DNA of 64,000 bases from contig JAKZES010000022.1 of assembly GCA_022548915.1 (NCBI GenBank), positions 1 through 64,000 of the forward strand, written 5' to 3'. Within the stretch, counting starts at the first letter, position 1. The number at the start of each line of letters is the position of its first letter. Under the pieces are notes generated by a model, which made no database searches, was not told the origin of the DNA, and saw only the letters and a program-made list of their open reading frames with translations. This document shows positions 26,788 to 52,086 of the stretch, one piece after another. Source of the DNA: Verrucomicrobiaceae bacterium E54. GTDB lineage: Bacteria; Verrucomicrobiota; Verrucomicrobiia; Verrucomicrobiales; Akkermansiaceae. A program made the position numbers and the translations under genes.

Positions 26788-27050
26788 CTAGGGGGCGGTT
26801 TCGGCCCGTAGGAAGGTCGCGTCCTTGGCGGTGCCGAGGTTGAACTGCACCGTGGCATGGCCGATGGCATCGGTCGTCACCTCGTTGCCGTCGAGGGTTC
26901 CGACGCTGGCTCCGGTCAGGGGGATCGGATTCTGATCGGGATTCGAGAAATCCAGGTCGTCAGCCTCGACCAAAATGTAGGCGGTGTTGGCGGCGCCTGC
27001 GATGCTCACCTCGGCGCTGCCGTCGGTCGGATCGTAGGTGAATCCGAGCA
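26788..27050 (-). repeat. C-terminal cassette repeat, copy 1
   Basis: About 260 bp encoding GFTYDPTDGSAEVSI to FLRAETAP. It is closely similar at the DNA level to copies at 27744, 28917 and 51184. Homology between copies 1 and 2 continues past the stop into the 3' flank (TTCAGAGCGGCAGG). Confidence 0.75.
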
Positions 27051-27702
27051 GGGCGGGGGAAGCCGGCCCCGGAATGGAGGCCAGCACGACGTTGTCGATT
27101 CGGCTAAACTCCCTCTCTCCTTCGACCGCGTTGTTCTGGTCAAATTCGATCCAGAGATCCCGGCCCACATTGGCGGCGACCACCGCGCCAATGCCGTTGA
27201 AGTCGTAGTTCTTGTAGCCCGCCCCGTTGGCGAACCCGGTGATGGTCCCGCTCGCGATCTCGGTGACGGTTCCACTGGTGGTGTCATCGCTGGTGGTGAA
27301 CAGGCGCCAGATCACCTCGTCCGTGCTCTGCCACCTGAACAGCGGGATCCAGTCGAAGCTCAGGTCGTAGGTTTCTCCCGCTCCGACCTTGTGACCCGTG
27401 TTGAGCAGCAGGCCGGTGGCGAGATCCGTGTTGAGGTCGTCATCGTAACCAATCACGGCGGAGTAGGTCCCATCGCTGGCATTGTTGTCGATGCGCTGCT
27501 CCTGAACGTTTGCAGCGGGATTCAACGACGGCTGCCAGAGATCGATGGTGGAGCCGATTCCGGTGCCGGTGCCGTCCTCGAAACTGCCGTTGAGGGTGGT
27601 GCTGTCGATGATGGTTGTGGCAGCCGAGGGCGAGATCGGGAAGATGGCGAAGCATGCCGGGATCAGGCATCGGGCGAATGAGTTGAAGATCGTTTTCATC
27701 AT
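26788..27702 (-). CDS. Secreted beta-rich protein with FLRAETAP C-terminal cassette
   Basis: This 304-residue protein has a signal peptide (FARCLIPACFAIFPISPSAA). An N-terminal ~200-residue jellyroll/lectin-like domain (STTLNGSFEDGTGTGI, GYDDDLNTDL, DLWIEFDQNN) resembles carbohydrate-binding domains. The last ~90 residues (GFTYDPTDGSAEVSIAGA to FLRAETAP) are the cassette shared with three other genes. It has no PEP-CTERM helix. It is the downstream member of a head-to-tail array with 27744-28712 and 28917-29945, with only 41 bp before it. Function unknown; surface polysaccharide binding is plausible. Confidence 0.75.
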   Translation of the reverse strand: MMKTIFNSFARCLIPACFAIFPISPSAATTIIDSTTLNGSFEDGTGTGIGSTIDLWQPSLNPAANVQEQRIDNNASDGTYSAVIGYDDDLNTDLATGLLLNTGHKVGAGETYDLSFDWIPLFRWQSTDEVIWRLFTTSDDTTSGTVTEIASGTITGFANGAGYKNYDFNGIGAVVAANVGRDLWIEFDQNNAVEGEREFSRIDNVVLASIPGPASPALLGFTYDPTDGSAEVSIAGAANTAYILVEADDLDFSNPDQNPIPLTGASVGTLDGNEVTTDAIGHATVQFNLGTAKDATFLRAETAP

Positions 27703-27743
27703 CAGATCTTGGAAGTTCAGAGCGGCAGGAAGGAGAGTCTCGT

Positions 27744-28015
27744 CTACGGGGCCGTCTCGGCCCGGAGGAAGGTGGCGGCCTTGGCGGTGCCGAGGTTGAA
27801 CTGCACCGTGGCGTTGCCGCTGGCATCGGTCGTCACCTCGTTGCCGTCGAGCGTTCCCACGCTGGCGGCGGTGAGTGGAATCGGGTTCTGATCCGGATTC
27901 GAGAAATCCAGGTCATCGGCCTCGACCAGCTTGTAGTTGGTGTTGGCGGCGCCGACAATGCTCACCTCGGCGCTGCCGTCGGCCGGATCGTAGGTGAAGT
28001 CGGCGAGGGCCAGTG
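27744..28015 (-). repeat. C-terminal cassette repeat, copy 2
   Basis: About 270 bp encoding DFTYDPADGSAEVSI to FLRAETAP, roughly nine bases in ten identical to copy 3 by eye. The bodies of the two genes it closes are unrelated, so this 3' end has moved or been homogenised independently. Confidence 0.75.
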
Positions 28016-28712
28016 TGGAAGGGTCGGAGGTCGTAATGGCTTCGATCCAAATCGCGGAATTCGATCCGCCCGACTCTCCGGTCCATCCGACGACTCCGCC
28101 TCCGGTTGTGTTACTAATCAACGAGGAACGCGAACTGGCACTGCTGAGTTGTTGTTGCGCCAGAAGCGTCGTGCGGGTTAGACCTGAAGGGAGCAGATTC
28201 CCAGCTGCCACGCTGTTGCTGCCAACGACATCCAGAATCAGCGAGCCCGCCGCCAAAGCAGGCACCGTGATGTCGCCGCCTCCACTCGAACCGCCAGCAA
28301 GGCTGGAGAAGTCGGCATTGGAGACCTGCAGCACCGAGACTCCAAATCCACTGGCTCCATTTAAAGTATCAGTGAATTCCATGTCGATGCTTAGACCGCT
28401 GGTGGCGACTTCATTGCCGAGGTCCAGCGCAAAAATGTAACTCTCTCGCAAACCAACGTCGTTGGATTCGAAAGCTGGTGTCAGCTCGTTCCCGTCGAAA
28501 GTAACACTTTCGAAGGTATGCACTTCGCTGCCAATGGCGATTAAAAGAACGCTGTTGTCTGCCGTAACCGTGTTGAAATTAAAGGAAGCCGAGCCTGTTC
28601 CAGCAGCTGTTCCCAGATTCAAGTATTGCTCCACGACAACTTGGCCGTTGGCTGACAAGATCGCCATCGCAGCAATGGCGACAGCTGTATGAAATGAGGG
28701 GATTGATTTCAT
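27744..28712 (-). CDS. Secreted protein with FLRAETAP C-terminal cassette
   Basis: This 322-residue protein starts at ATG 28712 (MKSIPSFHTAVAIAAMAILS), with cleavage after SANG. The N-terminal ~230-residue domain (VVVEQYLNLGTAAGTGSAS, SVLLIAIGSEVHTFESVTF) is a beta domain of a type often found in secreted verrucomicrobial proteins. It is unrelated to that of the 26788 gene. The last ~90 residues are the conserved cassette (DFTYDPADGSAEVSIVGA to FLRAETAP). Block B lies upstream at 28822-28845. Function unknown; probably cell-surface. Confidence 0.75.
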   Translation of the reverse strand: MKSIPSFHTAVAIAAMAILSANGQVVVEQYLNLGTAAGTGSASFNFNTVTADNSVLLIAIGSEVHTFESVTFDGNELTPAFESNDVGLRESYIFALDLGNEVATSGLSIDMEFTDTLNGASGFGVSVLQVSNADFSSLAGGSSGGGDITVPALAAGSLILDVVGSNSVAAGNLLPSGLTRTTLLAQQQLSSASSRSSLISNTTGGGVVGWTGESGGSNSAIWIEAITTSDPSTLALADFTYDPADGSAEVSIVGAANTNYKLVEADDLDFSNPDQNPIPLTAASVGTLDGNEVTTDASGNATVQFNLGTAKAATFLRAETAP

Positions 28713-28821
28713 GGTGATGATGGGTTGGATGCGTTGTTCTGTGTTCGAAGCCGGGAAGAACCGGGGAGCGACCGCTCTTGGTCGGAAATCATCCGGCTCC
28801 GCAAACGAGCAGTTGCATGGC

Positions 28822-28845
28822 ATCTGGCATCGGTTTTGGGACAGC
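28822..28845 (-). promoter_or_regulatory. Shared upstream block B (copy 2)
   Basis: ATCTGGCATC-N7-GGACAGC with the same spacing as at 26464-26487, 110 bp upstream of the ATG at 28712. Confidence 0.45.
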
Positions 28846-28916
28846 ATGTGGTACCGGTGATCGGGGTTTCCTTTCTGGGATAGGTGCTGATTGGTAGCCG
28901 CTTCTGGAGAGGTCCC

Positions 28917-29187
28917 TCAAGGTGCCGTCTCGGCCCGGAGGAAGGTGGCGGCCTTGGCGGTGCCGAGGTTGAACTGCACGGTGGCGTTGCCGCTGCCATC
29001 GGTGGTCACCTCGTTGCCGTCGAGCGTTCCGACGCTGGCACCGGTGAGCGGAATCGGATCCTGATCCGGATTCGAGAAATCCAGGTCGTCGGCCTCGACC
29101 AGCTTGTAGTTGGTGTTGGCCGCGCCGACGATGCTCACCTCGGCGCTGCCGTCGGCCGGATCGTAGGTGAAGTCGGCGAGGGTGACC
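28917..29187 (-). repeat. C-terminal cassette repeat, copy 3
   Basis: About 270 bp. The codons for VEADDLDFSNPDQDPIPLTG through VQFNLGTAKAATFLRAE nearly match copy 2. Confidence 0.75.
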
Positions 29188-29945
29188 TGGCCTGGTGCCG
29201 CCGGGATCGTCACCTGGACATCCCAAGTGCCCGCATAATACCTCCCGGTGCCTCCCCATTCCATCAAGAGGCCGGAATCGAGCCCGCCGGGTGCGAGGTC
29301 CACATCGGCCACTCCGGCCGCGGTGTTGACGCCATTGATTTTTGGGACGCTTGTCCCGGTCAAGTTCAGCAAATGAACCCCGGAGAAGCCGTCGAATGTG
29401 CCGCTGCCGTTCCCGGTACCGCCGTTCAGATTCACCACCAGACTGCTGAACTGGATGTTGATGAATTCATCGCTGGCGTTGATGTTCCCGCCAGTGTCGA
29501 GATTGAGGTAACCTTGGTTGAGTGGTTCGTCGTTGGGCACGTCATCGACGGCGAACCCGGGCGTGCCGATGCCACCCGAACTCGCGGTGACGGTGAAGCT
29601 GAGCACGAACGAATCGTTGAATCCCCCGGTTCCGTCGAGGTCGAGTCCCCCGACGGTATAGGCGAGGGTGGCCGCTGAGGGTTCCCCCTCGCCGTCTTCG
29701 AGAAAGTCACTGACGTCGAGTGTCGCCGTGTTGCTGCCATCGCCCACCACCGGAGCGCCGGCCCGGTCGCCGACCACAACGCTGTCTTGAGTGATAACCG
29801 CGTTGTTGCGCCTTGTCGGGTCCGACGGGTTGTCGGATGGAGAGGCCCAGTCCGTGTTGGACAAGCCATTCAGGGTGATTTCGACAGCCCCTGCCGGAAC
29901 GAGTCCAAGCGCGAGGACGAGGAGTGGGAGAATACTGCGTTTCAT
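28917..29945 (-). CDS. Secreted protein with FLRAETAP C-terminal cassette
   Basis: This 342-residue protein starts at ATG 29945 (MKRSILPLLVLALGLVPAGA), a strong signal peptide. The N-terminal ~245-residue beta domain (EITLNGLSNTDWASP, SFVLSFTVTAS, QGYLNLDTGGNINASDEF) is unlike those of its two neighbours. The final ~90 residues are the shared cassette (DFTYDPADGSAEVSIVGA to FLRAETAP). It is the most upstream gene of the array and carries block A (30029-30068) in its promoter region. Function unknown; probably displayed on the surface. Confidence 0.75.
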   Translation of the reverse strand: MKRSILPLLVLALGLVPAGAVEITLNGLSNTDWASPSDNPSDPTRRNNAVITQDSVVVGDRAGAPVVGDGSNTATLDVSDFLEDGEGEPSAATLAYTVGGLDLDGTGGFNDSFVLSFTVTASSGGIGTPGFAVDDVPNDEPLNQGYLNLDTGGNINASDEFINIQFSSLVVNLNGGTGNGSGTFDGFSGVHLLNLTGTSVPKINGVNTAAGVADVDLAPGGLDSGLLMEWGGTGRYYAGTWDVQVTIPAAPGQVTLADFTYDPADGSAEVSIVGAANTNYKLVEADDLDFSNPDQDPIPLTGASVGTLDGNEVTTDGSGNATVQFNLGTAKAATFLRAETAP

Positions 29946-38936: not shown

Positions 38937-39158
38937 GAAAGGATCGCCAAAGGACAGTGGCCATTCGGTCCGGGGCCGCTGGCTTCTGGACATGGATTCT
39001 TGAGCGCCACACCTGACGATGGGCCACTCTCGCGGGCGGGGATTCCGGCGGTGTCCGATTGACTATTCAAAAAGTGGTATCAGGCGCTTTTTCGGTCGCT
39101 CATTGATTCGAGGTCTCGTTTCGTTCATTCCGTCGGTAGAAAGTCAAGATTCGCACCG
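38937..39158 (+). other. Promoter region of the plus-strand polysaccharide cluster
   Basis: No gene here. The AT-richer segment 39055-39150 (GATTGACTATTCAAAAAGTGG, TTGATTCGAGG) precedes the first gene of the 39159-49946 cluster and is the most likely promoter location. No perfect operator palindrome was found. Confidence 0.35.
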
Positions 39159-40289
39159 ATGAAGCTCGCCCCCATCCCCTCACTGATCCCCGTATTTCTC
39201 GCTGCTGGAGGCCTCCTGCATGCGGCTCCGCTCGTTTACGAAGGCTTCGACTACGAGACCGGGGGAGTGGGCGGGAACAATGGCGGAACGGGTTTCACCG
39301 GGGCTTGGAGCACGGTGAAAGCCGCCCCTCAGGTCACTAGCCCCGGCCTGAGCTGGGGAAGCCTTGAAGTGGCCGGCAACTCCGTGATCGGCTCATCTGG
39401 CACCGGGGGAGCGGCACGCGACATCGGGGCGACCTCCGTGCTGGATAGTGGCGGCTTGATGGGCAACGGCGAGACCCTCTGGTTCAGTGTTCTTCTGGAG
39501 CTCGGGACCGAGACCGTTGTCAATGTCGACTGCAACTTCTCATTGGGCACGGACGGTTTCGCCAATTACATTCAAGGTACGGATCCTTTCGCCCGGAGGC
39601 TCGATCTGCAAAGTGGCGAGGGGATTGGATTCGCCTTGAGCAACGTGAACTCGAACACAGGCAGGATCGATGGCGCTTATTGGCAGGATGATGGTGATGC
39701 TGACAGCTACGCCAACCGCGTGAAGTCAACCGGCACGGCAACCTTCGATAGGGAAACCAGTCTGCTGATTGTCGGCAAGATTGATTGGGGAGCCGATGAT
39801 CTGGCGGCTGAGACGCTCACTCTCTATGCTCCCGATGCCAGCCTGAATCTCGGAACACCCGTTTTGGCGGCGACGAGTCTTGTCGCGCTCGACCAGTCCG
39901 CCTTCGATACGGTGGCATTCCAATTGAAAGCCGACGTGAAGATCGACGAGATCCGTTTCGGTGCGACCTCTGACGACGTGCTTCCGGTCGCGGTCAGCGC
40001 CGTCGAGCCGAGAATCACCTCGATCACCTCGGTCGGGCAGGACCTTTGGGAGCTGACGCTCGTCGGCGATCCATCAACGGACTACGAATTCTACTCCTCC
40101 ACCACGCTCGATTTCACCGCGGGCGCGCTGATCGAGAATCTGGTACAGGGCGACCCAGTCGGCGATGCGGGCACCGTCGGCGGCACCAGCAACAGCGTGC
40201 TGACGACCGACGCCAACGGCGACGGCAAGGTCCGCGTGACCCTGACCGGAGACCCGCGCGACTTCGTCCGGGCGCAATCCGCGCCATAA
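39159..40289 (+). CDS. Secreted lectin-like domain protein
   Basis: This 376-residue protein has a signal peptide (SLIPVFLAAGGLLHA). Residues ~24-275 are a concanavalin/LamG-like domain beginning LVYEGFDYETGGVGGNNGG and ending IDEIRFGATSDDV. The same domain recurs in the next two large genes. The C-terminal ~95 residues (ITSITSVGQDLWELTLVGD to DFVRAQSAP) are an analogue, diverged in sequence, of the FLRAETAP cassette. It is the first gene of a co-directional cluster and is followed 64 bp later by a PEP-CTERM gene. It probably binds the polysaccharide degraded by the downstream enzymes. Confidence 0.75.
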   Translation: MKLAPIPSLIPVFLAAGGLLHAAPLVYEGFDYETGGVGGNNGGTGFTGAWSTVKAAPQVTSPGLSWGSLEVAGNSVIGSSGTGGAARDIGATSVLDSGGLMGNGETLWFSVLLELGTETVVNVDCNFSLGTDGFANYIQGTDPFARRLDLQSGEGIGFALSNVNSNTGRIDGAYWQDDGDADSYANRVKSTGTATFDRETSLLIVGKIDWGADDLAAETLTLYAPDASLNLGTPVLAATSLVALDQSAFDTVAFQLKADVKIDEIRFGATSDDVLPVAVSAVEPRITSITSVGQDLWELTLVGDPSTDYEFYSSTTLDFTAGALIENLVQGDPVGDAGTVGGTSNSVLTTDANGDGKVRVTLTGDPRDFVRAQSAP

Positions 40290-44200: not shown

Positions 44201-45252
44201 GCGCGGGTAAGGCAGTGAATTCCGGCTCAGGGGCAGGGGCTCGCCTCATCGGTGACACCTCCGCCCTGGACAGTGCCGGCTTGATGGCAAACGGACAGTC
44301 GCTTTGGTTCAGCTTCCTGCTTTCCATCCCGTCCGGCCATACGAATGTGGACTTCAATTTTTCACTGGGCAGTGACGGCTTCGCCGATTACGGATCAGGT
44401 GAGTTTGGAGATCGAACAAGCCTGCAAAGTGGCGAGGGAATCGGAGTGGCCAAGATCAACCGCAGTTCGAGTGTGAGCGATATCGTGGGTGCCTATTATC
44501 AGGATAATGATGCGGACTCCTATGCCGAGCGCGTGACTCAACTCGCCTTTGACCGTTGGAATGGGGCCACACTTCTGATCGTCGGCAGGATTGATTGGGG
44601 CGCCGATGATCTGGCGGGAGAAACGCTCACCCTCTACACTCCGGATACCGACCTCAACCTTGGCACCGCAGTTTTGGATGGCATGGTCATTCCCGCACTC
44701 GACCAGTCCGCCTTCGATACGGTGGCTTTCCAGATGAAGGATGCGGTAACCATCGACGAAATCCGCTTCGGGGCGACCTATGAGGATGTGATCGGCTTGG
44801 GAGGCAGCGCCAGCGATTACGACACGTGGTCGGGAGGTCCCTTCCTGGGAACGTTGGGCGACAGCAATCCGGAGTTGGACTTCGATGGCGGTGGCCTCGA
44901 TACCGGAATCGAATACGTGGTCGGAGGCGATCCGACGGACGGGTCGGACGATATGGGCAAGGCCCCGGGCTTCGACAACACCACTGATCCGGACAAGTTC
45001 CTGTTCGTCTTTCGCCGGAGTGATCTGGCGAACGCCGACCCGAACACCACCATCGCCGTGGAATACGGGAGCAACCTCTCGGGTTGGACGACCGCCGCGC
45101 ACGAGGGAACGGACCCCACGCAGATCAGCATCAGCGAAGTCGATGATTTCTATGAGGCCGGAATCGACCAGGTGACCGTGGCGATCCCGCGCAGTCTCGC
45201 CGTCGGTGAAAAGCTCTTCGCAAGACTCAAGGTTGCCGTGTCCATCCCATGA
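41230..45252 (+). CDS. Secreted SGNH sialate O-acetylesterase-type enzyme with FN3 and lectin domains
   Basis: This 1340-residue protein has a signal peptide ending at LQA (res. 27). Residues 30-330 are an SASA/DUF303-type SGNH esterase: FILAGQSNMVGQG (Ser39 nucleophile), LCWHQGYND and DYHWN (catalytic Asp/His region). This family removes O-acetyl groups from sialic acid or plant and algal glycans. Downstream come a beta domain, a lectin-like domain (~490-725), two fibronectin-III-like repeats each opening with a metazoan-style PPSP/PPIP turn (~735-920), and a second lectin-like domain (~937-1190) homologous to 39159-40289. A final verrucomicrobial C-terminal domain follows. The stop overlaps the sulfatase start by ATGA, so the esterase and sulfatase are made in concert. 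Confidence 0.85.
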   Translation: MNSLFRFSNILAAALLALGLAVPALQAAPAKIFILAGQSNMVGQGVVAGETTPGTLAYTVANDLNGDYQFLVDGAGAWVQRSDVWYHSVSQADGNAGLTAGFGIDGGSIGPELGFGHAMGDLYEEPVILIKVAQGGRSLGVDFLPPSSGPYATPVADGDIGYWYERIIADVNGFIANDLASVPGYDAVEGYEIAGLCWHQGYNDLINVDRSAAYEANLVNFINDIRSDLSVPNLPFVIATTGTTAWFTYREVELAQLAVADAAAYPAFAGNVATIDTRQPYEDLTFWQLVEESPNNEDYHWNRNAKSYVNLGLAMADVMSQMVPARCPYRLRATGDATGVTLSWEDGTDAATSVRVLRDSSEIAAAAPISPASYLDTTAEPGLIEYQLEFAKSGDPCPPLTLTFDAGITDLDVYRFQNKVRLKWTNNLGYANIEVRRNGSLIDTIAGTATSYDDTSPPASGDVTYSVVPTNGSAAPTEETINLDGLSPGNAYIYEPFADADSTLRENRVGAGLSGRWIGNSSVVADSLSFGTLPTSGNHVSNPGGSDAVVNTRIRSELAEAGLLDHGGELWFSFLTNNTEDVNTTVMFCLGTDRSTINKSPASEGSVRGVQDGGQAIGVFLDRGTRPQAATWQAEARSTGTTTGTIPSETTGLVVGRITWGADGASADTVEIFLPGTDLVLPGSPVSTTSAVMDQAQFDVLSFSGKNVDSPQIDEIRFAASYDDVIATDQMVPDTTPPSPDPMIWATPPAALGDSSITMTATTATDLNGVEYYFESVSGGGNDSGWQDSSIYVDTGLNSETEYTYRVRARDKSPNQNATDWSPNAAATTEATDNGSPPIPGFDVAPFATSSTEISMTAETVVDPEGSGVEYYFTETSGNAGGDDSGWQDSTTYTDSGLSPSTTYSYTVKARDKSAQQNSSLESAAFDATTQAPPSGPGGALIYEGFDYDAGGLGTNNGGTGFTAAWSTIDSSPSVVAPGLSYGSLAVAGNGAGKAVNSGSGAGARLIGDTSALDSAGLMANGQSLWFSFLLSIPSGHTNVDFNFSLGSDGFADYGSGEFGDRTSLQSGEGIGVAKINRSSSVSDIVGAYYQDNDADSYAERVTQLAFDRWNGATLLIVGRIDWGADDLAGETLTLYTPDTDLNLGTAVLDGMVIPALDQSAFDTVAFQMKDAVTIDEIRFGATYEDVIGLGGSASDYDTWSGGPFLGTLGDSNPELDFDGGGLDTGIEYVVGGDPTDGSDDMGKAPGFDNTTDPDKFLFVFRRSDLANADPNTTIAVEYGSNLSGWTTAAHEGTDPTQISISEVDDFYEAGIDQVTVAIPRSLAVGEKLFARLKVAVSIP

Positions 45253-48200
45253 TCCGCCACCTGATAGCGTGCCTTGGACGATCCGCCGTCGCTCTGCTCG
45301 CTCTTGCCTTTCCGATGCAGGTCGTGCAGGCGGACTCCGGAGGTGCTCTGATCTACGAGGATTTCGACTACGGCAGCGGATCCGTGGGCGGGGCCAATGG
45401 CGGGCTTGGTTTCTCGGGTCCCTGGAGCACCTACAACGCGGCTCCTGCGGTGGTCTCTCCCGGATTGAGCTGGGGTAGCCTCGCGGTGGCAGGAAACTCC
45501 GTGATCGGCAGCGCCACCGGCGGCAGCGCGGCACGCGACATCGGCGCCCCCTCCGTGCTCGATGAGGGCAACCTGATGGCCAATGGGGACACCCTCTGGT
45601 TCAGCGTTGTCATGCGGAACGCGCCCAGTTCCATCGTGAATGTGGACTTCAGCTTCTGTCTGGGCACGGACGCCTTCGTGAATTTCGTCACGGGCGCGGG
45701 GGGGACATTCGGACAACGGAGGAATCTCGCAGGCGGCGAGGGAATCGGAGTGTCCTTTCTCAACGCCAATTCGACCTCAGGCAGAATCCAGGGTGCCTAT
45801 TGGCAGGATGACGCCGATGCCGACACCTACGCCAACCGCGTCCTGTTGGACACTCCGGCCTACATCAACGAGGATGCCAGGATCCTGATCGTCGGCCGAA
45901 TCGATTGGGGCGCGGATGATCTGACGGATGAGACACTCACCCTCTACGCGCCGGACACCGACCTGAACCCCGGTAGCCCCATTTTGGCGGCAGCGACCAT
46001 TCCCGCGCTCGACCAGTCGGCCTTCGATACGGTGGCTTTCCAGTTGAAGGGAGGGGCGTTTGTCGACGAGTTCCGCTTCGGTGCGACGTACGAGGACGCC
46101 GTCGGCCTGCAGACGTCGTCGCAGCCAAAAACCGCCCTGATCGACTTCGGCAGCGCCTCCGGCTTGCTCACCTCCTCGGGAGGATTGACCTACAATGCGC
46201 CTGCTTTCAACGACACGACCGATACCACAGGCTCCGTCGGGCTGAACAACGACATCACCGGGTCGGCGACCGGCTGGACCATTGATGTCACCCGGACCAG
46301 CGGTGGCACTTCCGACGCGGGCAATGCCGTCTCGGGTGCCAATCCTGTGAACGTGTTTCCCGGCGAACTCGCGGACTTCGCAATCGCCGCATTGCAGGAC
46401 AGCTTGTTCTTCAATGCGGGAGATCAGGCTGCCGGCGAACTCACCGTGACCATCGGCGGGCTGGACAACTCCATGCTCTACGACCTGCTCTTTTATGGAT
46501 CGCGTGCGAACCCAGGTGGAACCCAGACCTGGCATCTGACCACCGGCAGCGGCACGGCTGCCGACGTGATGCACGGTTCCGCCAACAACATGACCACCGT
46601 GGTCGACTGGAATGGCATCGCCCCGGATGCCGGCACCATCGCATTTACGGCAAGTGTGACCGGTGGTGTGGGTGCGCTCAACTTCGGTCAGGTGGTCGAA
46701 CGGGTCCCCGAGCCGGATCCTTTGCCCGTGATCGACACGTTCATCGTGGACGACCGCTACGTCGCGCCAGGATCCACCGTGACCCTCGACTGGGCCGTCA
46801 GCGGTGCCGACAGCGTCATCCTCAGTTCGGAGGCCGGTCCCGTGGCCGCCTCGGGCACGCTCGCGAAGACGATCGCCGCGACCACCACCTTCACCCTCAG
46901 CGCCACCAATGAAGTTGGAACGGTCGAGGAAAGCCTGACGGTGCATGCGGGCCCCCCTCGTCCGAACATCGTCCTCTTTCTGGTCGATGACATGGGGCCG
47001 ATGGACACTTCGGTGCCGTTCAGTTGCGACTCGAACGGGACTCCGGTCCACCGCAACTTCAACCACCTCTACGTTACTCCGGCCATGGAGGCGCTCGCCG
47101 GCAACGGCATGCGCTTCACCCATGCCTACGCCCAGCCGACATGTAGTCCGACCCGGGTCAGCCTCATGACGGGCCTCAATACCACGGGCCACGCGGTGAC
47201 TTCGTGGGTCTCCACCAACGGCGAGAGACTGGGACAGTATGCCCCCTCGAACTATCGCAACCGGGGGATCGAGAACCCGGATGAGGAGACCCTGCCGAAA
47301 TGGCTGTCAGCCGCGGGATACCGCACCATCCACACCGGCAAGGGACACTTCACCGACCAACACGATCCCAATGTCTATGATGAGGTCGAGGACCCGCGTT
47401 TCATCGGCTTCGATGTCAATATCGGCGGCAGTTGGCAGGGGCAGCCCGGCAGCTATCTCGGCACCGACAATTACGCCGGCCCCTCGCGCCCGTCGTGGCT
47501 CATCCCGGGGGTGGAGGAATTCCACGGGACCAACACCTTCTTGACCGAGGCGCTCACGATCAAGGCCAACGAGGCGATCACGGAAACCGTGGGCCGCGGC
47601 CAGCCCTTCTTCCTCTACATGTCCCACTACGCGGTGCACGCGCCATTTCAAACCGATCCGCGGGCCACCGGCGACTATTCCGCCATCACCAGCACCAGCC
47701 GTTCCTTCGCCACCATGATCGAGGGCATGGATCTTTCTCTCGGTGAGATCGTCGCCCATCTTGATGCCGAGGGAGTGGCCGAAGAAACCCTGATCATCTT
47801 CCTCGGCGACAACGGCTCCGACAACCCCCTCCTCAACGACAACGCCCTGCCGGATGCCCCCTACAACGACTATCCGCTCCTCGGAATGAAGGGGAACCGT
47901 GCCGAGGGGGGCAGCCGCATCCCACTGATCGTGGCCTGGGCCAAGCCCGATCCCACCAACCCCTTCCAGCAGGCCCTCCCGATCCCGGGCAACTCGGTCG
48001 AGCACGACATCGTCGCCTGCTGGGACCTGCCGGTCACGATCATGAATGTCGCCGGGGTCGAAATTCCCTCGACCGCCGATATCCATGGTCAGGACCTGAG
48101 CCCCTACCTCAGCGGTACACCGGGATCCCACCGCGAGCAGGAAATACTCATCTACTATCCGCACGGACGGGATGACAACGACCACTTCGCCAACTACCGG

Positions 48201-48830
48201 AAGGGCGACTGGAAGCTGACCTATCTCTGGGAAGAAGAGCGCTTCGCCCTTTTCGACCTTGCCGCCGATCCCACCGAAAGCAGCGACCTTGCGGCGACCC
48301 ATCCGGAAAAGGTCCTCGAAATGGCCCGGGGCATGGCGCGCCGGTTCGAGGAGGAATGGACCACCACCTTCGGCACGATCTGGCCCACCTATCCGTCTGC
48401 CGGCCAGGGAGCCCTCTCGACCGCCGCCATCATGGGCAATCTCGATCTCGATGGTGACGGCCGCAACGATGCCGACGAGGACGCCAACGCCAACGGCCTG
48501 CTCGACCCGGGCGAGACCGACCCCGACGACCGGGACACGGATGGTGACGGATCCGACGACCACACCGAGCTGCGCCTGGGTCTCGATCCCCTCAATCCGA
48601 CCAAGTTCTTCCGGGCCATGATCGGACCGGCGCCATCGAACGGCTTCGAGCTGCGCTGGCCGTCCCAGCCCGGGCTCACCTTCACCATCCGCCACAGCGC
48701 GGACCTCGCCACCCCGCCATTGGGTTGGACCACAGTGACCGGTGTGCCCGCCGCCGCTTCCGGCGACGAAAGCACCTGGACTTACGCCGGCCCCGACACT
48801 CGCCGGTTTTTCGTCATTGAACTTGAGTGA
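45249..48830 (+). CDS. Secreted sulfatase with N-terminal lectin-like domain
   Basis: This 1193-residue protein is translationally coupled to the esterase gene (ATGA). It has a signal peptide (CLGRSAVALLALAFPMQVVQA) and a lectin-like domain (~32-285, closely related to those of 39159-40289 and the esterase). A middle beta domain (~295-485) and an Ig-like segment lead to a sulfatase core with LFLVDDMGPMD (Asp580, Asp581) and QPTCSPTRVSL (Cys632 to formylglycine; Arg636). The core ends near 1040. DLDGDGRNDADED-type calcium repeats and the C-terminal tag RRFFVIELE follow. It probably desulfates the same acetylated polysaccharide. Confidence 0.9.
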   Translation: MIRHLIACLGRSAVALLALAFPMQVVQADSGGALIYEDFDYGSGSVGGANGGLGFSGPWSTYNAAPAVVSPGLSWGSLAVAGNSVIGSATGGSAARDIGAPSVLDEGNLMANGDTLWFSVVMRNAPSSIVNVDFSFCLGTDAFVNFVTGAGGTFGQRRNLAGGEGIGVSFLNANSTSGRIQGAYWQDDADADTYANRVLLDTPAYINEDARILIVGRIDWGADDLTDETLTLYAPDTDLNPGSPILAAATIPALDQSAFDTVAFQLKGGAFVDEFRFGATYEDAVGLQTSSQPKTALIDFGSASGLLTSSGGLTYNAPAFNDTTDTTGSVGLNNDITGSATGWTIDVTRTSGGTSDAGNAVSGANPVNVFPGELADFAIAALQDSLFFNAGDQAAGELTVTIGGLDNSMLYDLLFYGSRANPGGTQTWHLTTGSGTAADVMHGSANNMTTVVDWNGIAPDAGTIAFTASVTGGVGALNFGQVVERVPEPDPLPVIDTFIVDDRYVAPGSTVTLDWAVSGADSVILSSEAGPVAASGTLAKTIAATTTFTLSATNEVGTVEESLTVHAGPPRPNIVLFLVDDMGPMDTSVPFSCDSNGTPVHRNFNHLYVTPAMEALAGNGMRFTHAYAQPTCSPTRVSLMTGLNTTGHAVTSWVSTNGERLGQYAPSNYRNRGIENPDEETLPKWLSAAGYRTIHTGKGHFTDQHDPNVYDEVEDPRFIGFDVNIGGSWQGQPGSYLGTDNYAGPSRPSWLIPGVEEFHGTNTFLTEALTIKANEAITETVGRGQPFFLYMSHYAVHAPFQTDPRATGDYSAITSTSRSFATMIEGMDLSLGEIVAHLDAEGVAEETLIIFLGDNGSDNPLLNDNALPDAPYNDYPLLGMKGNRAEGGSRIPLIVAWAKPDPTNPFQQALPIPGNSVEHDIVACWDLPVTIMNVAGVEIPSTADIHGQDLSPYLSGTPGSHREQEILIYYPHGRDDNDHFANYRKGDWKLTYLWEEERFALFDLAADPTESSDLAATHPEKVLEMARGMARRFEEEWTTTFGTIWPTYPSAGQGALSTAAIMGNLDLDGDGRNDADEDANANGLLDPGETDPDDRDTDGDGSDDHTELRLGLDPLNPTKFFRAMIGPAPSNGFELRWPSQPGLTFTIRHSADLATPPLGWTTVTGVPAAASGDESTWTYAGPDTRRFFVIELE

Positions 48831-50195: not shown

Positions 50196-50876
50196 TCAGC
50201 GGCGTCGGCGAAGAATCCCCAGAAACGCGAACCCCAGCAAAAATGCCGATGACGGCTCGGGGATGGCGCCCACATTCCCTTCCAGGCTGACATTGTCCAG
50301 GAGGTGGATACGCGTATTGCTTCCGCTACGGTCCGTGAGATAAAACCGGAATTCCACCGTCGTGTCCGTCAGGTTTTGCAGGCTGGTGATGCCGGTAAGG
50401 TCAATCGGACCACTCAATGAGGGGTCGCTACCTTCATTTCCAAAGACACCCGCAAGCTCATTGCCAACCGTGAATCCGGTTTTGTCACTGAAGAGGCCAA
50501 AGCCGAAGTCAAAACCGCTTGTGGAAGTGTAATCAAAATCAATGCTGGTCAAGTCCACCTCGGTGGCGCTGTCGATGGTCACGGTGAAACTGAGGTAATG
50601 ACCATTAGTAATCGCCGCATCCATAACGGTATCCAAGTCCGACGGATTGGAAGGGTCAAAGGCAACAGTCGGGGTATCATCACCACCGATTTCAACACGA
50701 TTACTCGTGTATGACGGAGTGATACCACTGGCTGCGAAGCTGCTGGCGGTAGTGGAGAGTTCCGTATCCGAGGATGCCGTCGATCCGCCGGTGAAATCAT
50801 ATTGGGCGATGACCGTGGCCTGTGCTGAGGCGGATGCGATCAAAGCGGCACAGAGGAAGATAAATGGTCGCTTCAT
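50196..50876 (-). CDS. PEP-CTERM protein, paralog of 51184-52086
   Basis: This 226-residue protein has a signal peptide (RPFIFLCAALIASASAQA) and a ~175-residue jellyroll-like body opening VIAQYDFTGGSTASSD and closing TRIHLLDNVSLEG. It ends IPEPSSAFLLGFAFL, then GILRRRR, the PEP-CTERM exosortase tag. The body is clearly homologous throughout to that of 51184-52086, which lacks the PEP-CTERM tag and has the FLRAETAP cassette instead. Promoter not identified. Confidence 0.88.
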   Translation of the reverse strand: MKRPFIFLCAALIASASAQATVIAQYDFTGGSTASSDTELSTTASSFAASGITPSYTSNRVEIGGDDTPTVAFDPSNPSDLDTVMDAAITNGHYLSFTVTIDSATEVDLTSIDFDYTSTSGFDFGFGLFSDKTGFTVGNELAGVFGNEGSDPSLSGPIDLTGITSLQNLTDTTVEFRFYLTDRSGSNTRIHLLDNVSLEGNVGAIPEPSSAFLLGFAFLGILRRRR

Positions 50877-51183
50877 GGGGGTATCGTTTAAGCTTTCTTG
50901 AAAATATTGCTGATTGCCAAGCTGTCAGGGTCTCGTGAGTTGCTCTGCGCGGCAGCAGCAGTTCCGGGTTGTGTCGCCCGGCCTGAAAAGGCGCGCAAAC
51001 GAGTGATGCTGCTCATGCCCTGCTTTTCAAGTTCTAATTTTCGGACCAACTGGCACCTCGTTTAGTTCAGATCGGGGAATTGCCCCAGGCGACTGCGGTT
51101 GGCCGCCGCGATGGTGATGGAATTCCACCCGCGGGCGGCCCCAACGATGGCGGGCTTGACGGGGCATCGGGGCCGGGGTGTCC

Positions 51184-51450
51184 TCAAGGTGCCGTTTCGG
51201 CCCGGAGGAAGGTGGCGTCCTTGGCGGTGCCGAGGGTGAACTGCACCGTGGCATGGCCGCTGCCATCGGTGGTCACCTCGTTGCCGACGAGCGTGCCCAC
51301 GGTCACGGTGGCCCCGGTTAAATCGATGGGATTCTGATCGGGATTCGAAAAGTCCAGGTCGTCGGCCTCGACCAGCTTGTAGTTGGTGTTGGCGGCGCCC
51401 TCGATGCTCACCTCGGCGCTGCCGTCGGTCGGATCGTAGCTGAAATCGGT
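51184..51450 (-). repeat. C-terminal cassette repeat, copy 4
   Basis: About 265 bp encoding SYDPTDGSAEVSIEGAANTN to FLRAETAP. It is close to copies 1-3 despite lying 22 kb away, with a one-residue insertion (TVTVGTLVGNEV). Confidence 0.75.
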
Positions 51451-52086
51451 GATCGTCGGCGAGGCCGACAGCGTCGCCACCGCTGCCTCCAGACTGACGC
51501 TGTCGAAGACGTGGATCCGTGTGCCCACTCCGCTTCGGTCCATGAAATAGAATCGGAATTCGACGGATGTATCCGTCAGGTTCTGCAGGCTGGGAATGCC
51601 GGAAAGGTCAATCGGACCGCTCAGCGAGGGGTTGCTCGCCTCATTGCCAAAGACACCGGCAAGCTCGCCGCCCACCGTGAATCCGGTGATATCCGTGAAG
51701 ACTCCAAAGCCGAAATCGAAGCCACTGATGGAGCTGTAATCGAAGTCGATACTCGTCAAGTCCACCTCGACATCGTTGCCGATGGTGACGGTGAAGCTGA
51801 GGTAGCTACCCGTGCTGATCGCGGGAGCCATTGCATCGTCCAGACTGCTAGGATTGGGCGTAGGAGGATAGTTGTAGGGAGTGTCATTTCCTCCAATCTC
51901 GACCCGATCCGAGGTGAACGCAGGCGTCACCCCGGATCCGGAGACCATGGCTCCTGCGACCGTCAGCGTTTCCGTATCGGAGGATGTGGTCGCGCCAGCG
52001 GTGAAATCATAGACGGCAATCGGGGTGGCTGGTGATGACGCGGCTGCGATGAGGGAGGCGCTTAGGCAAGCCAGTCGATTTTTCAT
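51184..52086 (-). CDS. Paralog of the adjacent PEP-CTERM protein, carrying FLRAETAP cassette instead
   Basis: This 300-residue protein starts at ATG 52086 (NRLACLSASLIAAASSPA signal). Its first ~200 residues align with the PEP-CTERM protein at 50196-50876: VYDFTAGATTSSD/QYDFTGGSTASSD, DLTSIDFDYSSISGFDFGFG, GELAGVFGNEASNPSLSGPI, SLQNLTDTSVEFRFYF. The last ~85 residues are the shared cassette (DFSYDPTDGSAEVSIEGA to FLRAETAP), replacing the PEP motif, transmembrane helix and RRRR. The swap is exact at the domain boundary. This suggests the cassette has a comparable C-terminal job, such as surface sorting. Confidence 0.85.
   Translation of the reverse strand: MKNRLACLSASLIAAASSPATPIAVYDFTAGATTSSDTETLTVAGAMVSGSGVTPAFTSDRVEIGGNDTPYNYPPTPNPSSLDDAMAPAISTGSYLSFTVTIGNDVEVDLTSIDFDYSSISGFDFGFGVFTDITGFTVGGELAGVFGNEASNPSLSGPIDLSGIPSLQNLTDTSVEFRFYFMDRSGVGTRIHVFDSVSLEAAVATLSASPTITDFSYDPTDGSAEVSIEGAANTNYKLVEADDLDFSNPDQNPIDLTGATVTVGTLVGNEVTTDGSGHATVQFTLGTAKDATFLRAETAP

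Follow-up and report, generated by a model that had tools for sequence, protein, structure and literature searches.

Recurrent exchange of the PEP-CTERM exosortase tag for a predicted Ig-like C-terminal domain in the genome of Verrucomicrobiaceae bacterium E54

Sequence comparisons that started from a window of 64,000 nucleotides (the whole stretch of DNA analyzed here) of the Verrucomicrobiaceae bacterium E54 genome indicate that, in this genome, the exosortase tag of exported-type proteins has been replaced many times by a folded domain, and that, where the direction can be clearly read, namely for a protein body encoded in the window, the exchange went from PEP-CTERM to the new domain, hereinafter the cassette. 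Eleven of the 18 tail proteins of the E54 genome have a PEP-CTERM paralog with homology extending up to the PEP motif, so that the proposal of the initial annotation that an exosortase tag can be replaced by the cassette holds beyond the single pair of neighboring genes from which it was derived. The features of this pair are as follows:

50196..50876, minus strand: PEP-CTERM paralog, an ORF of 226 aa with a signal-peptide-like N-terminus, body and PEP-CTERM tag
50199..50264, minus strand: the PEP-CTERM tag (IPEPSS, hydrophobic stretch, RRRR), from a profile search of the genome
51184..52086, minus strand: cassette paralog, an ORF of 300 aa with the same body as 50196-50876 and the FLRAETAP cassette instead of the tag
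51187..51453, minus strand: the FLRAETAP cassette, 89 aa, an Ig-like beta sandwich as predicted by AlphaFold2

Both ORFs are present and share a common body with different ends, as originally described (63% identity over 222 aa), and the switch indeed falls at the domain boundary, with the alignment ending at the PEP motif. The 50196-50876 protein exceeds the curated cut-offs of both relevant families (PF07589, 22.9 vs 20.7 bits; TIGR02595, 20.4 vs 16), whereas 51184-52086 has no match with E<=1 in either Pfam or NCBIfam and thus lacks the features of a PEP-CTERM substrate. An exosortase is encoded in the same genome (PF09721 at G000:C196:2871-3623, E 9.3e-50).

The search of the E54 genome (5.9 Mb in 255 contigs) with the cassette as the query returned 12 places, ten with the close FLRAE form of the tail and two with the FVRAQ form; an FVRAQ profile recovered five places, and the FYRVE/P form was found in three. 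The resulting set of 18 tail proteins (10 FLRAE, 5 FVRAQ and 3 FYRVE) holds at the thresholds used, with more distant F-x-R tails present outside the count, and with C216:338 and C144:19730, which the tail pattern also retrieved, excluded as members. PEP-CTERM itself was detected in 35 places at E<=0.01. The comparison partners were 38 PEP-pattern ORFs from the fetched own-genome loci, one of which is spurious (a sulfatase at 45210) and among which one gene appears twice (C133:46920).

All three forms of the tail are attached to bodies that also occur with PEP-CTERM: five of the ten FLRAE proteins (51184, 63% identity; C11:42970, 84%; C11:51724, 67%; the internal copy L010, 66%; and C247:9317, with 71% to the first body repeat and 40% to the second), three of the five FVRAQ proteins (C201:15849, 82%; C253:6172, 36%; C44:97740, 30%) and all three FYRVE proteins (C199:35794, 53%; C247:4564, 43%; C174:57977, 38%). 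In ten of these 11 pairs, the partners are located on one contig, mostly adjacent to each other, the exception being C174:57977. For the C201 pair, homology can be traced in the DNA, with 84.7% identity over 816 bp, the last matching base being the second of the Ile codon immediately before Pro-Glu-Pro; in the tail gene, the match stops ten bases short of ITSF, where the tail starts. For the other seven tail proteins, comparison with the own-genome PEP proteins yielded no paralog that was counted; for two of the seven, PEP-ended relatives of the body were identified in other genomes. Two weak matches were left out of the count, namely 39063-40289 with C247:3719 (24% identity, E 1.5e-5), which reaches the PEP motif, and C201:14681 with C222:151017 (27%), which ends 18 residues short. 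The pair L005/L037 was rejected because the tblastn match fell in a 1394-aa protein downstream of the PEP gene; L005 is supported by PEP-ended body relatives in other genomes. Among the tail proteins of related bacteria, four of 39 match a PEP body up to the junction when the reference is the set of PEP proteins of E54 and not those of the relatives' own genomes.

The clearest junction is that of C11:42970 (L006): this protein and its tandem PEP neighbor both read EGAAAIPEPSS, followed in the neighbor by a hydrophobic helix and RRRR and in L006 by VTLAGFTYDP and the cassette. A PEP-like pattern, [VIM]PxP[APS], picked after the junctions had been inspected, is present at four of the ten FLRAE junctions and absent from the 3097 aa of the same bodies. 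Proline-rich linkers may account for part of this pattern: some of the relatives' cassettes are preceded by linkers of this type that are not PEP, and therefore only C11:42970 and, to a lesser degree, C247:9317 can be considered secure remnants. In the latter protein (L084, 9317-11077 of G000), the body occurs as two repeats in tandem, with a degenerate PEP-like motif after each (LPPDPAS and MPAPSS), the second motif being the one that precedes the cassette.

Four further tail proteins are encoded in the window:

26788..27702, minus strand: cassette protein 4, cassette at 26791-27051, with IPGPAS (PEP-like) directly before it
27744..28712, minus strand: cassette protein 3, cassette at 27747-28007, unrelated body
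28917..29942, minus strand: cassette protein 2, cassette at 28920-29180, unrelated body
39159..40289 (ORF 39063-40289), plus strand: protein with the sister tail FVRAQSAP, tail at 40014-40286, linked by a profile-profile match of the tail forms

The first three are successive genes (26788-29942) with near-identical C-terminal cassettes on unrelated bodies, among which no similarity was detected; in the window, the cassette is 87-89 aa long. The cassette DNA of 27744-28712 and 28917-29942 is 95% identical, which suggests gene conversion or recent spread among these neighbors. Another protein of the window, 45249-48830 (plus strand), consists of a PEP-CTERM-type N-terminal body, VPEPDPLP, a short stretch and a part that we take to be of the sulfatase type; perhaps, in this case, another domain was joined directly after a PEP-like motif. 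A 353-aa stretch of this protein shows 52% identity with the FVRAQ protein (ORF 39063-40289).

With respect to the direction of the exchange, the body of 51184 yielded 13 matches in nine of the 145 genomes of the family, and all 12 non-self matches (two of them in the E54 genome) end in a PEP-CTERM-type tag, two with a degenerate PEP motif. Hence the cassette is derived there, and PEP-CTERM, judging from these matches, is the ancestral state for this body. Other bodies present a more heterogeneous picture. The body of 26788 has 53 matches in 31 genomes; among the 23 loci read out of 29 non-self loci, six end in PEP-CTERM, one in an F-x-R-type tail (L192) and one has no tail, 14 are inside larger proteins, and one was unreadable. 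The seven non-self loci read among the eight matches of the C201:14681 body comprise three with PEP-CTERM, three in larger proteins and one unclear case. The L006 body family is likewise mixed, with two PEP paralogs and four of the six non-self members in large proteins without a PEP tag.

At the DNA level, the seven most similar cassettes of E54 show 79-95% identity to one another, and for most pairs the identity reaches no more than about 15 bases beyond the domain, which excludes chance resemblance. Between cassettes on unrelated bodies, it generally begins and stops close to the edges of the domain; the larger exceptions extend further downstream in L004/L005 (116 bases) and L001/L006 (25 bases) and further upstream in L005/L006 (32 bases) and L004/L006 (23 bases). 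The dS values among these seven cassettes are 0.19-0.70, compared with 1.70, near saturation, for the bodies of 51184 and 50196, and accordingly the cassette either joined the 51184 body at a much later time than the duplication or was subsequently homogenized; for the L006 pair, the dS of the body is 0.38, so that cassette and body are of comparable age. A single clade of own-genome cassettes found no support: in a tree of 21 short rows, the own copies do not form one clade, and 10 of 18 inner branches are open. These near-identical DNA blocks on unrelated bodies, the difference in dS and the confinement of the burst to E54 among the genomes searched would be compatible with neutral replacement, in which an inert, tolerated Ig-like domain would have been dispersed by recombination and any effect would stem solely from the loss of PEP-CTERM. 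We consider this explanation unlikely given that dN/dS in close cassette pairs is about 0.1-0.4 (for example, 0.05/0.41), which implies that the domain is under purifying selection and its sequence is maintained, and that three sister forms of the domain have been used recurrently at the same kind of site.

Modeling with AlphaFold2 from a seven-sequence alignment (pLDDT 89.3, pTM 0.77; the five models range from 89.3 to 64.1) yields eight strands, an almost all-beta composition and no transmembrane helix, and the cassette is accordingly predicted to adopt a beta sandwich that is generically Ig-like. The full-length model of 51184-52086, built from two sequences, was poor (pLDDT 49.7) and was not used. 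Solved structures gave weak, generic matches (superoxide dismutase, neocarzinostatin and intimin; best Z 5.9, with Z 5.1 for the intimin fragment), and a Foldseek search gave no match at E<=0.001 (best E 0.11). Searches of sequences of known structure (PDB) produced no convincing relative, only matches with E of 0.05 or worse to antibody fragments, SH3 proteins, an iron transporter and a carbohydrate-binding module, and scans of seven representatives against Pfam and NCBIfam found no match over the cut-offs. The three forms of the tail are connected to different extents: the FLRAE and FVRAQ profiles align with an hhalign probability of 98.6 (E 1.4e-15), and the link to FYRVE is weaker, consisting of one place (G108:C231) that is retrieved both by the FLRAE profile (E 2.8e-4) and by the FYRVE query.

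Beyond E54, the domain family is broadly represented, and the close copies are not. The FLRAE profile matches 16 of the 145 family genomes, E54 included, with E below 1e-15 outside E54 in only six places in six genomes; thus, E54 has ten close copies, and none of the 144 other family genomes searched has more than one strong match. In the phylum, FLRAE is present in at least seven of 387 genomes, a lower bound given that at most 13 candidates per genome were scored. The FVRAQ and FYRVE profiles match 17 and 29 of the 145 family genomes, respectively, and the named relatives include Haloferula rosea and an Akkermansiaceae MAG. Taken together, these sequence searches indicate that the cassette belongs to a verrucomicrobial domain family ending in F-x-R, widespread and mostly C-terminal, of which it is one branch that has been amplified. 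A role of the cassette as a substitute for a lost exosortase was considered and discarded: exosortase is encoded in all 16 FLRAE-positive genomes and in 124 of the 145 family genomes. At such a high base rate, the overlap between exosortase and FLRAE is uninformative.

The initial annotation suggested that the cassette might serve Verrucomicrobia as an alternative signal for sorting or anchoring. In its strong form, this would be a true C-terminal signal with dedicated machinery, comparable to the type IX CTD. The cassette does take the place of another sorting tag, and its position is clearly biased: 17 of the 18 own-genome tails end 0-3 residues before the C-terminus, and among 34 loci of relatives collected with the FLRAE and FVRAQ profiles, 28 are C-terminal (13 residues or fewer after the match), four are internal (L057, L072, L092 and L094) and two are unjudged (L049, cut by the contig end, and L102, probably spurious). 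Likewise, the FYRVE query gave 40 matches, and among the 30 loci read, which include two own-genome loci and one repeat of an earlier place, 28 are terminal and two internal. Moreover, by our own rule, a signal-peptide-like N-terminus is present in 13 of the 16 tail proteins, out of 18, to which the rule was applied, compared with 32 of the 38 PEP-pattern ORFs and 18 of the 113 stop-to-stop ORFs of the window. Nevertheless, the expectation that the cassette is always C-terminal fails with L010, in which it is internal to an 884-aa frame and followed by about 540 residues. Mid-protein copies, which the initial annotation had named as evidence against a terminal signal if found often, do occur, in one of the ten own FLRAE proteins and four of the 34 loci of relatives, and are thus a minority and not frequent. 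In L072, the tail is followed by a sulfatase-like region, and in L057 (= L105), L092 and L094, an internal FVRAQ domain is followed by 174 aa to the C-terminus. These five copies in internal positions, which belong to the two closest tail forms, together with the variable residues after F-x-R-A-E (TAP, EVPE, SVPSAP or TP), speak against a strict terminal signal, as does the lack of any NCBIfam match to the cassette at E<=1; likewise, no partner gene came to light in the comparisons made here. With FLRAE so sparsely distributed in the family and the phylum, and many close copies only in E54 among the genomes searched, a general sorting signal of Verrucomicrobia finds little backing, and we regard a dedicated one as improbable. 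Some of the internal copies are of interest in themselves. L010 (= L083, 7528-10182 of G000 C11), the most diverged in dN among the ten FLRAE copies, is a natural three-part fusion, in which a PEP-type body and the cassette are joined to a part that seems to resemble FAD-dependent oxidoreductases, and the 174-aa regions start alike (LLSxDFEA) in two relatives (G048 twice, G037 once).

An assembly or binning chimera, although conceivable for a fragmented draft, is highly improbable because the 11 junctions are spread over eight contigs within intact reading frames and comparable F-x-R-tailed versions of PEP bodies exist in other genomes (L150, L105, L073 and L192).

We therefore return to recurrent tail exchange as the preferred reading and consider it moderately likely that the exchange frees exported proteins from exosortase and provides them with an Ig-like, perhaps adhesive or stabilizing, end. 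As the sequences show, exported-type proteins that originally ended in PEP-CTERM, with the PEP motif, transmembrane helix and Arg cluster of an exosortase substrate, exchanged this tag, at or just after the PEP motif, for the predicted Ig-like beta-sandwich domain of about 87 residues. Without the helix and the Arg cluster, the protein would presumably be exported by Sec with neither inner-membrane hold nor exosortase processing, and the Ig-like end could serve as a structural or adhesive cap, a role that is perhaps indicated by the predicted fold. The PEP-tagged and cassette-bearing copies of a body would then reach different places, being, respectively, handled by exosortase and free or non-covalently attached. 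The extracellular polymer is believed to incorporate PEP-CTERM proteins (PMC9850573), and hence the cassette versions should differ in fate. A more specific version, which we put forward as a speculative possibility, is that PEP-coding DNA is the landing site: a cassette with a PEP remnant would recombine into successive PEP genes, so that clients become independent of exosortase stepwise and tandem duplicates keep one copy of each fate. The E54 genome contains about 35 short, similar PEP tracts, and the DNA match of L005 and L006, which extends 32 bases upstream of the cassette through both PEP-like stretches on unrelated bodies, fits this version.

To our knowledge, the action of exosortase on its many clients is still poorly understood. 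The E54 genome contains some ten matched pairs of a body that carries the exosortase tag and its counterpart that does not, with identities of 84% and 82% in the two close pairs, and comparison of the locations of the partners would test the role of the tag directly. These pairs amount to a natural experiment on tag function, in which the tag was repeatedly lost and a folded tail gained, with one clear case of a tag remnant. Furthermore, the present observations point to a C-terminal domain that is widespread in Verrucomicrobiota and has as yet no name.

Among known domains, Big_1 and Invasin_D3 of Pfam resemble the cassette in the predicted Ig-like sandwich and in weak sub-threshold profile matches (Big_1, E 0.12; Invasin_D3, E 0.005) but their gathering scores are far from reached (12.9 vs 34.9 and 17.7 vs 33 bits), and the cassette is single-copy and mostly located at the protein end. 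The CTD of type IX secretion (TIGR04183) is also a C-terminal beta sandwich common to unrelated exported proteins; unlike it, the cassette has internal copies and, like the 51184-52086 protein, matches no NCBIfam family at E<=1. TIGR04189 (SprA) has no match in the E54 genome, and likewise none in the control genomes. The idea of exchangeable tails is also conveyed by the NCBI 'choice-of-anchor' family names. In the titles and abstract openings of the open-access papers surveyed, we found no description of replacement by an Ig-like domain, of fossil PEP motifs or of the F-x-R tail family. Exchange of tails on one body has been described among GlyGly-CTERM, PEP-CTERM and LPXTG, including a PEP-CTERM case from Verrucomicrobium spinosum, the alternative tails described there being membrane-spanning, sortase-type tags (Haft, 2011; PMC3237569). 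One body family with several alternative C-terminal tails is what we observe as well; however, the PEP-CTERM example described there spans species, whereas the exchange in E54 is mostly between neighboring paralogs of one genome, and the new tail lacks a membrane helix. PEP-CTERM was itself introduced as a movable tail, first met in V. spinosum, that is appended to proteins with homologs devoid of it and that expands rapidly in some lineages (Haft, 2006; PMC1569441). The E54 proteins share with the PEP-CTERM/exosortase system the body families and the signal-peptide-like N-termini; moreover, in every pair one partner is an ordinary PEP-CTERM protein. In contrast to that system, the replacement is a folded domain and not a motif-helix-basic tag, and the cassette end appears to arise from PEP-CTERM, the motif of which was left behind in L006.
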